Assembly (NCBI GenBank): GCA_027065385.1
Contig: JAMOOP010000043.1
Location: forward strand, 1 to 53,150
Source: Campylobacteraceae bacterium
GTDB taxonomy: Bacteria; Campylobacterota; Campylobacteria; Campylobacterales; Sulfurovaceae
Direction of reading: 5' to 3'
Length of the DNA: 53,150 nt
How positions within the stretch are numbered: the first letter of the stretch is position 1; every line of letters begins with the position of its first letter. Of the stretch, positions 10,336 to 37,478 are shown one piece after another. Made by a program: the position numbers and the translations under genes. The notes under the pieces were generated by a model. That model was not told where the DNA came from. It saw only the letters and a program-made list of their open reading frames with translations, and ran no database searches.

Positions 10336-10773
10336 ATGTTAGTAAAAAGATATGAACCATTTAATGATATTAGAAGAAGTTTTGATTTAGTAAATCAAAT
10401 AATTAATTCAGTTGAGAGAAGAGCAGAAACAAGCTCAAATATAGTTGATTTTATTCCTAAAGTTAATACTAGAGAGGGTAAAAATGCTTATCATATAGAG
10501 GTTGAATTACCTGGTATTAAAAAAGAGGAAGTTGATGTTAAAGTAGATGGTAATGTTCTTACTATTTCAGGTGAGAGAACTTTAAGAGATGAAGTAAAAG
10601 AGGAAGATTATCATAAAGTAGAAAGTAGATATGGAGTGTTTTCAAGAAGCTTTACTTTACCTGAAAAAGTAGATGTTGAACATATTCATGCTGAAAGTGA
10701 AAATGGTATTGTAGAGATAATTATTCCAAAACTAACTATAGATACAAGTAGCAGAAAAATTGAAATTAAATAA
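10336..10773 (+). CDS. Hsp20 small heat-shock protein 1, cytoplasmic
   Basis: The product is a 145-residue alpha-crystallin-type holdase that binds unfolding proteins without ATP. The alpha-crystallin domain spans about residues 40-135, with YHIEVELPGIKKEEVDVKV, the HKVESRYGVFSRSFTLPE strand and ENGIVEIIIPK. The C-terminal extension is short and ends in IEIK. No signal peptide. AAAAAGGAT precedes the ATG. It is first of three Hsp20 genes spaced 10 bp apart, apparently one operon. It is about 40 percent alike by eye to the second copy, so an old tandem duplication is likely. Confidence 0.92.
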   Translation: MLVKRYEPFNDIRRSFDLVNQIINSVERRAETSSNIVDFIPKVNTREGKNAYHIEVELPGIKKEEVDVKVDGNVLTISGERTLRDEVKEEDYHKVESRYGVFSRSFTLPEKVDVEHIHAESENGIVEIIIPKLTIDTSSRKIEIK

Positions 10774-10783
10774 GGAGGAGATT

Positions 10784-11212
10784 ATGAGCAGTATTAAAGA
10801 GAAAACAAAAGAGTTACTAGAAAATGTTGAAGAGAAAGTAGAACAAGGTGTAGAGGTAGTTAAAGAGACATTTGATAATGTAGCAAGACATCTACCTTTA
10901 GCAAACTTTGCAAAACATAGCAGTGATACTTATGATATTGAGATAGATTTACCAGGTGTAAAAAAAGAGGATATTGAACTAAAAATTGAAGATGACTATT
11001 TAACAGTTAATGCTGTAAGAAAAACTAAAAATGAGATTAAAAAAGAGGATTACTATCTATGTGAAAGTAACTTTGGACTAATCTCAAGAAGCTTTATTCT
11101 TCCAAAAGATATAGATAGAGATAAAATCTCTGCTAATTTAGAGAATGGAAGATTATATATCTCTTTGGAAAAAGAGGAAAAAAGAAAAGCAAAAAGTATT
11201 TCTATTAAATAA
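10784..11212 (+). CDS. Hsp20 small heat-shock protein 2, cytoplasmic
   Basis: The product is a 142-residue alpha-crystallin-domain chaperone. The N-terminal 45 residues are a charged helix (SIKEKTKELLENVEEKVEQG) unlike copy 1, followed by YDIEIDLPGVKKEDIELKI and CESNFGLISRSFILPK. An in-frame TTG at 10760 would overlap the preceding gene, but the ATG at 10784 has a strong AAGGAGGAG four bases before it and is chosen. The C terminus ends SISIK, a possible I-x-I oligomerisation motif. Separate N-terminal arms suggest it forms mixed or distinct oligomers with copy 1. Confidence 0.9.
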   Translation: MSSIKEKTKELLENVEEKVEQGVEVVKETFDNVARHLPLANFAKHSSDTYDIEIDLPGVKKEDIELKIEDDYLTVNAVRKTKNEIKKEDYYLCESNFGLISRSFILPKDIDRDKISANLENGRLYISLEKEEKRKAKSISIK

Positions 11213-11222
11213 AGGAGATAGT

Positions 11223-11741
11223 ATGTTTAAAAAAATTATAACAACGGCACTTTTGGCATCTTTGCCAATAGTGACACTTAATGCTGATAGTAATATTACA
11301 AAAAATCCATTTGCTAATGACCCTATGTTTAAAGATTTTCAAAAACTTCAAGCAGATATGAATAAGATTTTTGAGAACTTTCATAAAGAGTTTTTTAATA
11401 ATATAACAATTCCAAAAATTCCAATTAATTTGGATAGTGGATTTTCAGTATCGGTCAAAACAGATGTTATAGATAAAGGTGATTATTATGAAGTAAAAGC
11501 TGATTTACCTGGTGTAGAAGAGAAAGCTATTAAAGTTAATGTAAAAGATAATATCTTATCAATAGAGGCAAAAACTGAAAAGAGTAAAGAGGATAAAAAA
11601 GATAATAAAATTATAAAACAAGAGAGATTTGTAGGAAATTTCTATAGAGCTATGAGTCTGCCTAGTGATGCCAATAGTGATAAAATGACAACGAGTTATA
11701 AAAATGGTGTTTTAACTGTAAATATTCCTAAGAAAAAGTAG
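11223..11741 (+). CDS. Hsp20-family protein with Sec signal peptide, predicted periplasmic
   Basis: The product has 172 residues. Residues 1-21 (FKKIITTALLASLPIVTLNA then DS) form a classical signal peptide with two Lys, a hydrophobic core and an A-x-A-like cleavage site after Ala21. The mature protein has a helical stretch (FKDFQKLQADMNKIFENF) and then an alpha-crystallin domain (YYEVKADLPGVEEKAIKV, ERFVGNFYRAMSLP, NGVLTVNIPKK). An upstream in-frame start at 11145 lies inside the previous gene and lacks a ribosome-binding site; ATG 11223 follows AAAGGAGATA. It is the third gene of the Hsp20 operon, so cytoplasm and periplasm may be protected together. Confidence 0.88.
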   Translation: MFKKIITTALLASLPIVTLNADSNITKNPFANDPMFKDFQKLQADMNKIFENFHKEFFNNITIPKIPINLDSGFSVSVKTDVIDKGDYYEVKADLPGVEEKAIKVNVKDNILSIEAKTEKSKEDKKDNKIIKQERFVGNFYRAMSLPSDANSDKMTTSYKNGVLTVNIPKKK

Positions 11742-31243: not shown

Positions 31244-32401
31244 ATGACATCAAACCCAAAAATAAAAAAGAAAAAAACAGATACTATTTTAGAAAATTTA
31301 GGTAGTAGATATTTTAACTATATATCTAAAAAGGTAAAATATAAAGATGAGATAAAAATTAAAAATATTCCATCTGATAAAATCTTACAAGTAGTATCTA
31401 GTAATATATCAACCTATACAGTAATTATTGCTTTTTTAGTTGGTGCATTAACCACAATTCCAACTGTTCTATTTGAGATATATTATAAAAATAGCTATAC
31501 TCCATTTTATTACTATTTAATTTTAGGAGCAATTACTATAATTTTACTAATTATAGAGATTTCCATATTATATTGGCTAGGAATGAGAAGTAGTTATACA
31601 TTAACAGAGCTTATTGGTTATGATGAGACAAATAAAGATAATTTGCCTCCTGAATATGATATAAAAAAGATAATGGTTCGTTCTGCTTTAGAATTAGATG
31701 ATTTGACTATTCAATATTTAGGGCTTGATTTAGAAAAACATGTCTCTAAAAAATGGGTACTATTTAGTAGTTTACTCTATAAAGCAAAAATAGTTCTAAC
31801 AAGTGCTATTGCTAGAATTCTTTTAGCTAAACTGTTTGCTAGAGAGACTTTAAGGTTTGGTTTTGTTTGGGTCTCTGTTCCTGTTACAGCTTTTTGGGAC
31901 GCTATTGTTATGTATAGAGTAATAAAAGATACTCGATTGCGTCTATTTGGGTATCATCTATCTAAATATATTATTGATGAGATTTTAACTGATAAGGTTT
32001 TAGATAAATACTCTCCTCATACAGTAGAAGGAACAATTCGAGCAGTCTCTACTATGATAGTTTTAGCTAAGAATTATCACCCAAATAATATAATTTTGCT
32101 TATTAGATTAAGTAACCACTTAAATATTAATGAAGCTAAAGATTATGATGATTTGGATAAGTTTTTAGAATATCTGAAAAATTCCTCTAAAGAGGAGAGA
32201 CATCTTTTAAGAACTCTATCTGGAATTTCAGCAGTTTTTGATGGAAAACTTAATAAAAAAGAGAAAAAAGCTTTAATTTTGATATTTGGAGATGAATATA
32301 ATGGATATATGAGCTTTACTAAAGAGTTAAAATCACTACTTTTAAAGAGTAGATTACATCAATCGGCAAATTTATGCTCTAAAAATTTGCTTTTAAAATA
32401 G
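31244..32401 (+). CDS. Membrane protein with helical C-terminal region, unknown function
   Basis: The product has 385 residues. A basic N-terminus (NPKIKKKKTD) precedes two strong membrane helices (about 62-82 and 88-110). A third weaker hydrophobic region lies at about 175-215 (KIVLTSAIARILLAKLFARE, GFVWVSVPVTAFWDAIVMY). The C-terminal 100 residues are helical and soluble; ISAVFDGKLNKKEKKALILIFG looks like a TerB-type motif (D-G-K-L-x-x-x-E), which hints at a tellurite-resistance-like helical domain but is weak. Family not recognised. It starts a run of five same-strand genes up to 35375. Confidence 0.55.
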   Translation: MTSNPKIKKKKTDTILENLGSRYFNYISKKVKYKDEIKIKNIPSDKILQVVSSNISTYTVIIAFLVGALTTIPTVLFEIYYKNSYTPFYYYLILGAITIILLIIEISILYWLGMRSSYTLTELIGYDETNKDNLPPEYDIKKIMVRSALELDDLTIQYLGLDLEKHVSKKWVLFSSLLYKAKIVLTSAIARILLAKLFARETLRFGFVWVSVPVTAFWDAIVMYRVIKDTRLRLFGYHLSKYIIDEILTDKVLDKYSPHTVEGTIRAVSTMIVLAKNYHPNNIILLIRLSNHLNINEAKDYDDLDKFLEYLKNSSKEERHLLRTLSGISAVFDGKLNKKEKKALILIFGDEYNGYMSFTKELKSLLLKSRLHQSANLCSKNLLLK

Positions 32402-34164: not shown

Positions 34165-35375
34165 TGAGATTTATTTTTGTACTGTTTTTATTTATGCAGA
34201 TAGTATTGGCTAATTCTTTACAAAATGCTATAGATAAGGCATCTGCTTATGATACAATAAAATTATATAGTGGAGTATATAAAGGAGATATTACTATAAA
34301 TAAACCTCTAACTATTTTAGGAATTGAGAAAGGCGTAGAGATTAAAGGTAATGGTAATGGAACAGTTATTAAGATAAATAGTTCAGATGTTATTTTAAAA
34401 AATCTTATTATTAGTAATAGTGGGGATAAATTTTATGATATAGATTCAGCTATAAAAATAAAAAACTCTAAAAGATGTCTAATAGATAGATGCACCATAA
34501 AAAATACACTCTATGGCATAGATATGAGTATGGTAAGTGACTCTAATATTACAAATAATAAGATTACCTCAAATGGCAAAAATATAGAGTTTAGAGGAAA
34601 TGGTCTAAAACTATACTACTCCTCCAATAACCTTTTTTTTAAAAATATTATCAAAGATGTAAAAGATATAACACTAAACTACTCACACAATAATATTTTT
34701 AAAGAGAATAGATTTTTAAATAGTAGATTTGCTACACATTTAAGTTTGAGCCATTCTAATATTTTAGAAAATAACTTCTATCAATATAACTCGGTATCTA
34801 TTATGATTATGGGTGCAAAAAACACTAAAATAGTAAAGAATAAGATATTAAGCTCAAAAGGAAGTGCTGGAATAGGTGTTGTTATTAAAGGTGTATCTAA
34901 TTTTAAATTTAAGAGAAATATTGTTAAATTTAATGCTAAAGGTTTATATATAGAGGGTGGAGAAAAGGGTAAAGGTATAAAAAGAGAGATTATAGGAAAT
35001 GAAATCTCATATAATAAAGAGGCATTACATTTTCATCAAAGTATAAAAGATAATATTATAATAGACAATCGAATATTTGGAAATATAGATGATGTAGTTA
35101 AAGATTTACCAAGTAAAATAAATAGTTCAAATATTATAAAAAGAAACTATTGGGATAGATATAAGGGGTTTGATAGAGATGGAGATAATATAGGAGATAG
35201 ACCATATAGAGTCTATCAATATTTTAGTAGATTATGGGAATATAATAATAAGGTTAAATTCTTTTACGCTTCTCCTATTATGAGTGCTTTAAACTTTATT
35301 TCAGAGTTAGCACCATTTATTGAACCAAATTTATTAATAGAAGATAGTGAGCCAATTTTAAAAAAAGAACTATAA
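34164..35375 (+). CDS. NosD-like periplasmic right-handed beta-helix protein
   Basis: Residues 1-16 (RFIFVLFLFMQIVLA) form a signal peptide. The mature ~387 residues form parallel beta-helix coils with frequent Asn (SNNLFFKNIIKDVKDITLN, SNILENNFYQYNSVSIMI). The end shows the NosD-type NYWDRYKGFDRDGDNIGDRPYR segment with a DxDGDxxGD acidic loop. True NosD helps build the copper site of nitrous-oxide reductase. No nosZ or other nos gene is in the window, and the neighbour is an amino-acid permease, so its role may differ. Its 1-bp overlap with the permease indicates co-expression. Confidence 0.75.
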   Translation: MRFIFVLFLFMQIVLANSLQNAIDKASAYDTIKLYSGVYKGDITINKPLTILGIEKGVEIKGNGNGTVIKINSSDVILKNLIISNSGDKFYDIDSAIKIKNSKRCLIDRCTIKNTLYGIDMSMVSDSNITNNKITSNGKNIEFRGNGLKLYYSSNNLFFKNIIKDVKDITLNYSHNNIFKENRFLNSRFATHLSLSHSNILENNFYQYNSVSIMIMGAKNTKIVKNKILSSKGSAGIGVVIKGVSNFKFKRNIVKFNAKGLYIEGGEKGKGIKREIIGNEISYNKEALHFHQSIKDNIIIDNRIFGNIDDVVKDLPSKINSSNIIKRNYWDRYKGFDRDGDNIGDRPYRVYQYFSRLWEYNNKVKFFYASPIMSALNFISELAPFIEPNLLIEDSEPILKKEL

Positions 35376-35410
35376 ATCTAACATTTTCACACATTTTGGA
35401 CACTTATTCT

Positions 35411-35419
35411 TGATATAAT
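35411..35419 (+). promoter_or_regulatory. Extended -10 promoter in the nosD-argH gap
   Basis: TG-A-TATAAT is a perfect extended -10 element, 185 bp upstream of argH, too far for a short leader. The predicted start is near 35426, exactly at the base of the stem of the candidate small RNA. Confidence 0.55.
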
Positions 35420-35425
35420 TCCCCC

Positions 35426-35492
35426 ATAAGAGTCATAACATTCTCCTCCTTTTAAATTTTTGAAAGGCTCTTATTCATTAGCTTTTATTTTA
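35426..35492 (+). ncRNA. Candidate small RNA with anti-Shine-Dalgarno loop
   Basis: From the predicted start, ATAAGAGTC (35426-35434) pairs with GGCTCTTAT (35466-35474, one G-U) around a 31-nt loop containing CTCCTCCTTTT, complementary to strong ribosome-binding sites. An inner CCTTT/AAAGG pairing (35448/35463 region) could close part of the loop. T-rich sequence follows to 35492. Architecture recalls Campylobacterota small RNAs that act through C/U-rich loops. The 3' end is uncertain. It could instead be a long argH leader. Confidence 0.45.
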
Positions 35493-35534
35493 TATTTTAT
35501 TCCACCACTAACCATTAAGGTTAAAATAAAAGCT
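35480..35534. repeat. 13-bp perfect inverted repeat upstream of argH
   Basis: AGCTTTTATTTTA (35480-35492) and TAAAATAAAAGCT (35522-35534) face each other across 29 bp. It may terminate transcripts entering from either side, or act as leader structure for argH. Confidence 0.5.
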
Positions 35535-35564
35535 GATTCTATTTCTACTTATTCTAAAATACGA

Positions 35565-35603: not shown

Positions 35604-37001
35604 GTGTCAAAGAAAATTGCATCAGCAAGAATTACAGAAAAAAGTTCAAAACTACTTCAAGAGTTAAATAACTCTCTTCCATTTGATAAAATACTCTATA
35701 AAGAAGATATAGAGGGTTCTATAGCTCACGCTTTTATGTTATCAGAACAAGGTATTATCTCTAAAGAGGATTATAAAGAGATAAATAGAGGTTTAAATGA
35801 AATATTAGAAGAGATAGAGAGTGGAGAGTTTAAGCTTAATGGAGATGATGAGGATATTCACATGGCTATTGAGGGGAGACTTACAGAGAAGATTGGAGAT
35901 GCAGGTAAAAGACTTCATACTGCAAGAAGTAGAAATGACCAAGTTGCATTAGATTTTAGACTATATGTTCAAAAAAATACAAAAAAGATTGCTAAATTAC
36001 TACTTAAAAATATAGAGACTCTTATTAATCTAGCAAAAGATAATACCTCTACTCTTTTACCAGGTATGACACATCTTCAACATGCTCAACCTATTAATTT
36101 TGGGTATCATTTAATGGCTTATGCTAGTATGTTTAAAAGGGATTATGAGAGATTTATAAGCTCTTTCCATAGAAACAATCTATCTCCAATAGGTTGTGCA
36201 GCATTAGCAGGAACACCACACCCTATTAATAGAGAGATAACTTCATCTAAACTTGGATTTAAAGAACCAACTTTAAACTGTTTAGATACTGTAAGCGATA
36301 GAGATTTTGCTTTAGAAGTTCTATTTAATATATCAACAATGCTAATGCACATTAGTAGATTTAGTGAAGAGATTATTTTATGGTCTTCTAGTGAGTTTAA
36401 ATTTATAACTCTAAGTGATAGACATGCTACAGGTTCTTCTATTATGCCACAAAAGAAAAACCCAGATATTCCAGAGCTACTTCGTGCAAAAACAGGTAGA
36501 GCAAATGGAAATTTAATTGCACTATTAACTGTTATGAAAGGACTTCCATTAGCATATAATAAAGATATGCAAGAGGATAAAGAGGGAGTTTTTGACTCAA
36601 TTAAAACAGCTCTATTATCATTAGAAGTTTTGGAAGAGATGGTATCGCAAATGAAAGTAAATAGGCAAAATATGGAAAAGGCTTGTATGATAGGACACCT
36701 TAGTGCTACAGATTTAGCAGACTATTTAGTAAAAGAGATAGGAATTGCTTTTAGAGATGCTTATCATATAACAGGAGGTGTTGTAAATTTAGCAGAAAAT
36801 AAAGGTTTAGATATATCTGAATTATCTTTAGAAGACTTACAAAGTGTTGATAGTAGAATAGGAGAGAGTGTTATAGAGTTACTAGATAATAGAGCCTCAA
36901 TGAATGCAAGAAATTCAGAGGGTGGAACAAGTAGTGCTAGAACAAAAGAGCAAATAGAGAAAATGAGTCTTTGGATAGAATTACAGAAAGAGGAGATTTA
37001 G
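35604..37001 (+). CDS. argH: Argininosuccinate lyase
   Basis: It splits argininosuccinate into arginine and fumarate, the last step of arginine synthesis, in the cytoplasm. Its 465 residues match the fumarase/aspartase superfamily. [17 protein letters not shown] near 111 and [14 protein letters not shown] near 152 (catalytic His) are present. The signature [12 protein letters not shown], with catalytic Ser at 278/279, is at 277-288. The start is GTG at 35604, with AGGAT eight bases upstream. The EIIA gene begins 3 bp after the stop. Confidence 0.96.
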
Positions 37002-37004
37002 AGT

Positions 37005-37478
37005 ATGTTTGGATTTTTTAAAAGTAAGCCAGTAGAATTAAAAGCTATATCTAGTGGTGATATTGTAGAGTTAGAAGATGTTAAAGATGAAGTATTTTCA
37101 CAAAAATTAGCAGGTGATGGAGTAGCAATTATTCCACTAAATGGAACTATTTTATCACCAATAGATGGAAACTTATCAAAAATATTCCCAACAAATCATG
37201 CCTTTTTAATTACTGCAAAAGATATAGAGGTTATGGTTCATATTGGATTAGATACTGTGGAATTAAAAGGAGAGGGATTTAAAAGATTAATAGAAGAGGG
37301 AGAGAAAATTAAAGCAGGAGATGCTATTATAGAAGTTGATTTAGACTATTTAAAAGAAAAAGGAAAAGATACTATTACACCTATTTTAGTAAATAGCCAA
37401 AAGAGTATAACTATTGAAAATAAAAAAATTGGTTCTATTAAAGAAAAAGAAGCTCTTTTTGAAGTAAAATTTAAATAA
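37005..37478 (+). CDS. crr: PTS glucose-type EIIA protein
   Basis: The product is a 157-residue soluble phospho-carrier of the sugar PTS. The duplicated hybrid-motif fold shows VAIIPLNGTILSPIDG (40-55), NHAFLITA with His65 and VMVHIGLDTVELKG with His79; His79 takes the phosphate from HPr and gives it to EIIB. It is a free-standing single domain, so it is the natural partner of the EIICB at 12765, which has no EIIA. It sits in the argH operon 23 kb away, a surprising place. Whether it also regulates (inducer exclusion) cannot be told. Confidence 0.9.
   Translation: MFGFFKSKPVELKAISSGDIVELEDVKDEVFSQKLAGDGVAIIPLNGTILSPIDGNLSKIFPTNHAFLITAKDIEVMVHIGLDTVELKGEGFKRLIEEGEKIKAGDAIIEVDLDYLKEKGKDTITPILVNSQKSITIENKKIGSIKEKEALFEVKFK

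Follow-up and report, generated by a model that had tools for sequence, protein, structure and literature searches.

The window, that is, the whole stretch of 53,150 nucleotides that was analysed (contig C43 of genome G000, a Sulfurovum-like member of Campylobacterota), carries one copy of a previously uncatalogued multi-copy RNA family, approximately 115 nt in length and built of two hairpins. The structure of this RNA covaries among its relatives, its loops are conserved in composition across the family and its members share a promoter box. The trans-acting translational repressor put forward in the original prediction is still the best reading: these RNAs would be sibling sRNAs that repress translation through anti-Shine-Dalgarno (anti-SD) loops, a proposal to which we give a probability of roughly two in three (0.68).

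Structure and distribution of the RNA family

The RNA gene lies between a gene encoding a NosD/beta-helix protein, which ends at 35375, and argH, which starts at 35604 (Table 1). Transcription would begin at 35425–35426. The stem of hairpin 1 comprises 9 bp, including one G-U pair (fold z = -3.0), and is directly followed by the longer and stronger hairpin 2 (35477–35537), which is probably a weak intrinsic terminator, T accounting for 39–62 % of the 10 nt 3' of its stem in family members. The whole RNA of 117 nt folds at -26.1 kcal/mol (z = -6.0). The extended -10, the 9-bp stem, the 31-nt loop, its motif and the complementarity of that motif to a site ahead of hsp20, all described beforehand, are present in the sequence; the first hairpin stands as predicted, whereas the element does not end at 35500 but runs on to about 35540 with the second hairpin.

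Table 1. Parts of the RNA gene and its promoter in the window
Feature	Position	Strand	Basis
Promoter box CACATTTTGGACAC	35390..35403	+	1 mismatch to family consensus CACRATTNNNACAC
Extended -10 TGATATAAT	35411..35419	+	Sequence; TATAAT at 35414-35419
Small RNA gene, ~115 nt	35425..35540	+	Covariance-model match, whole-RNA fold
Hairpin 1, 5' arm ATAAGAGTC / AUAAGAGUC	35426..35434	+	Covariation
Loop 1, C/U-rich, 31 nt	35435..35465	+	Anti-SD 4-mer in 105/106 distinct relatives
Anti-SD-like motif CTCCTCCTTTT / CUCCUCCUUUU	35443..35453	+	Identical in type-A members L034, L039, L051
Hairpin 1, 3' arm GGCTCTTAT / GGCUCUUAU	35466..35474	+	Covariation
Hairpin 2, 5' arm	35479..35490	+	12 pairs, changes on both sides in 9
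Second exposed C/U-rich segment UUCCACC	35491..35509	+	Family loop 2: 1.5 % G, CC in 96/106
Small inner hairpin AACC/GGUU	35510..35522	+	Covariation at 4/4 pairs
Hairpin 2, 3' arm	35524..35535	+	Covariation; T-rich sequence after

Similar intergenic stretches in differing contexts were found in relatives by blastn, and nine of them were used to build a first covariance model, which found 1–8 copies in each of 32 among 34 genomes, mostly metagenome-assembled, of one genus. A second model, built on the collected loci, yielded 107 members. The genome of the window (contamination 5.83 %) holds copies on contigs C43, C170, C141 and C9 and a weaker match on C90; within it the window copy scores E 2.7e-15, a rough value, as are all E-values of the models built here. 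Outside the genus, no matches were obtained in samples of the order (399 genomes), the family (40) and the phylum (397), the order and phylum samples being filtered more strictly, so that more distant members could have escaped detection. Scanning 84,980 species for an exact pattern returned 32 stretches, in records titled Sulfurovum, Campylobacteraceae or Epsilonproteobacteria and one merely 'bacterium'. At the gathering threshold of Rfam 15 the window gives a tRNA only, the RNA itself having no family match, and its best sub-threshold matches in an E-value search are at chance level.

In an alignment of 54 members fitted to the covariance model, 94.8 % of the cells are paired and double changes occur at 21 of 25 base pairs, a figure reached by none of 500 shuffles; in the main helix of hairpin 1, both sides change at 7/8 pairs. 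The first nine members, aligned by MAFFT and not fitted to structure, likewise exceed shuffles and slid controls in both percentage paired and covariation score. The covariation of the stem that had been proposed as a check is therefore found on fitted and unfitted alignments alike and, together with constant promoter geometry, conserved C/U loops and 107 relatives, strongly supports a discrete small RNA with an anti-SD-like loop.

The gene contexts bear on whether the element might instead act in cis, as the 5' leader or terminator of a downstream gene. The same-strand argH lies 64 nt downstream in the window and 48 nt downstream in G005, and a gene encoding an AAA+ ATPase is the downstream neighbour of 18 members, mostly at 50–110 nt. 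On the other hand, for 53 of 104 members the closest gene downstream is encoded on the other strand, and the G015 RNA with the loop type of the window is followed by another gene in opposite orientation, which makes a cis element very unlikely. A leader of argH in particular was rejected, as contexts and orientations vary among members. The window copy itself is conserved from promoter to hairpin 2 at locus L003, where the adjoining genes differ. In the region 35604–37478, argH has a weak SD and a GTG start and precedes a gene of PTS EIIA type; at L050, L066 and L067, too, argH lies next to a PTS EIIA-like protein. The class II sRNAs that lack the promoter box (L060, L070, L071, L129 and other cluster-0 loci) usually stand 50–110 nt upstream of an AAA+ ATPase gene whose product carries a winged-helix domain.

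The copy number, with neighbouring pairs at G030:C23, G018:C9, G009:C59 and G011:C177, would also suit a mobile element or dispersed repeat that uses its hairpins to propagate itself. This is extremely improbable, given that copies group by conserved gene context and loop type across species and that those inside one genome are strongly divergent.

Conserved loops and the question of targets

An anti-SD 4-mer is found in loop 1 of nearly all distinct members, against 58.5 of 106 expected from shuffles. G makes up 4.7 % of loop 1 and an even smaller share of loop 2, compared with 11.5 % of the flanks. Paralogue types differ in loop sequence, and each type recurs in several species; the loop type of the window (type A, CUCCUCCUUUU) is shared unchanged by G015, G017 and G005, the last of which keeps it despite a largely different stem. 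Across the family, the C/U runs of loop 1 are predicted to be unpaired with a mean of 0.89, none falling below 0.5. The 31-nt loop of the window copy is predicted to be open only in part: AUUCUCCU is exposed, while in the minimum-energy fold (-9.9 kcal/mol, vs -7.8 kcal/mol for the fully open loop) the 3' motif half CCUUUU pairs with GAAAGG. Three other genomes have this loop, and in two of them, G015 and G017, the same half is predicted to be open.

One other explanation of such loops is that they titrate a pyrimidine-binding protein (cold-shock or S1-like, for example) or bind the ribosome, copy number setting the dose. The loops are indeed conserved for pyrimidine richness rather than for one fixed sequence, and there are many copies per genome. 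However, SD-complementary, CC-containing cores are kept beyond composition and loop types are conserved between species, so titration appears unlikely. Alternatively, the loop might simply mirror a genuine ribosome site on the other strand, the element being an antisense antitoxin (AapA/IsoA-like) or a small protein gene on the minus strand. In the window copy that strand reads AAAAGGAGGAGAAT followed by ATG-ACT-CTT-ATG, but the ORFs on it are dissimilar among members and short, with a median of 15 aa and only 10 codons in the window, and it is the plus strand that carries the conserved structure and promoter, leaving this explanation barely credible. A small protein on either strand was rejected, no conserved ORF being found among members.

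Under the proposal of sibling sRNAs, a promoter with a two-part box replacing the -35 would yield an RNA of ~115 nt, hairpin 2 of which probably doubles as terminator. Both hairpins would present nearly G-free, C/U-rich single strands able to pair with the G/A-rich Shine-Dalgarno regions of mRNAs, thereby blocking ribosome binding without Hfq, which was not detected in any of the 34 genus genomes by a model that recovers Hfq in 5/14 control genomes. With a common scaffold but different loops, the paralogues probably act each on a distinct set of targets. We infer transcription, repression, targets and regulator alike.

The second hsp20 gene had been suggested as a target. Its site, AAGGAGGAG at 10772, gives the strongest pairing (-17.2 kcal/mol) among 43 window genes. 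The same loop occurs in G015 and G017, but there hsp20 has just AAGGAGTTTAAA or AAGGAGTTAAAA as its site and pairing weakens to -7.7 kcal/mol; orthologous sites in relatives usually read AAGGAGT or similar, and the long match is thus specific to the genome of the window among those compared. Genome-wide, the type-A complement AAAAGGAGGAGAA shows no excess relative to a reversed control pattern. Accordingly, hsp20 was rejected as a conserved target, and neither hsp20 in relatives nor the type-A complement disclosed a conserved extended target. Target prediction is underpowered here, as anti-SD loops weakly match many ribosome sites. The second hsp20, one of three consecutive hsp20 genes followed by a phosphofructokinase gene (10336–11741), has an unusually strong ribosome site, which among the compared genomes occurs only in this one.

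Promoter box and candidate regulon

Most members share one promoter layout, consisting of CACRATTNNNACAC, 10 nt, TATAMT, 5 nt and the RNA start, and the -10 keeps its distance of 5 nt from the modelled RNA start across the family. In the window the box contains two ACAC elements 11 bp apart, standing where a -35 would be. By a loose criterion the box precedes 79/107 members, and its exact pattern occurs at 61 sites in 31 of the 34 genus genomes, compared with none for the reversed control pattern.

Apart from the sRNAs, box sites lie ahead of a ComEA-like gene, of soxY in three genomes (G009, G022 and G025) and of a small cytochrome c at nine of the loci read, including a cytochrome c553-like gene in the genome of the window (L195:2850-2879; G000:C105:13349-13378). 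Comparison with Pfam confirmed the first cytochrome and one SoxY; the other box-linked genes were named by reading the sequence, as were a cytochrome c gene and two thioredoxin-like genes that follow sites in other genera. These positions suggest a possible energy-metabolism regulon.

In Helicobacter pylori, the repeats bound by HP1043 have their centres 11 bp apart and replace the -35 element; cytochrome c553 and the RNA gene cncR1 are among its targets, and TTTAAG is the reported sequence of the repeats (PMC5253667). The geometry of those sites is similar to that of the box described here, but the sequence is different. The CosR/HP1043 orthologue, L275 (PDB 8uvx, 2hqr), has a DNA-binding domain nearly that of the solved orthologue; in view of this and of the reported TTTAAG repeats, it is no more than a possible regulator of the box. 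The OmpR-type regulator L276 (G000:C130, ~32137-32355) is a candidate for the box-binding protein. On reading, its receiver domain seems to lack the phosphorylation residues. In all, 16 regulators of the OmpR type were found in the genome of the window, and one that is linked to cytochrome c/Sox expression may drive most copies of the RNA. We put forward only tentatively, at somewhat less than even odds, that one regulator activates cytochrome c553, soxY and the sibling sRNAs, each loop silencing its own group of mRNAs without Hfq within a respiratory/sulfur-oxidation regulon.

Relation to known anti-SD RNAs

The 6C RNA, whose Rfam model is RF01066, is reportedly independent of RNA chaperones, to go by the title of a 2019 article by Mai et al. 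The family described here gives no gathering-level match to 6C, is multi-copy and is U-rich instead of carrying C6. In mycobacteria, the two C-rich loops of 6C (B11) pair with ribosome-binding sites, and either suffices (PMC10470900).

The streptococcal csRNAs depend on CiaR, occur as several related RNAs per genome, many with two stem-loops, and carry an unpaired anti-SD; their promoters carry a pair of repeats set 11 bp apart, the second lying ten nt ahead of TATAAT (PMC3091779, PMC9603419). Multiple copies with an unpaired anti-SD sequence are found here too, but the CiaR box is TTTAAG-N5-TTTAAG, whereas the present family has, in equal geometry, the ACAC-type CACRATTNNNACAC-N10-TATAMT. The anti-SD of csRNAs stands between stems, while here, in another phylum, it stands in hairpin loops. 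Each hairpin of the alphaproteobacterial cuckoo RNA/alpha-r14 family (NfeR1) presents an unpaired anti-SD motif (PMC10746234). That motif is the ultraconserved CCUCCUCCC, and alpha-r14 has three hairpins, whereas the two hairpins here have loops that vary by paralogue type, the core CCTCC occurring in 8/106 loops 1 and 9/106 loops 2. RepG of H. pylori, offered as an example in the original prediction, pairs its C/U-rich loop with a G-rich mRNA leader (PMC8295292). It shares the C/U-rich loop and the phylum but is one analogue among several; compared by description, its C/U loop is in the terminator and its target is a G-repeat rather than an SD, and the reported homologues of RepG come from gastric species of Helicobacter. 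As the defining sequence of each comparator tested is lacking, the RNA was filed as a new family; it would work like csRNAs, cuckoo/alpha-r14 and 6C, the proposed likeness being one of mode of action.

If the proposal is correct, Sulfurovum-like Campylobacterota without detectable Hfq possess an uncatalogued, covariation-supported sRNA family, and anti-SD sibling sRNAs arose in one more phylum. One scaffold with differing loops among paralogues makes loop-to-target rules directly testable, and the common promoter box would tie RNA control to sulfur-based energy metabolism.
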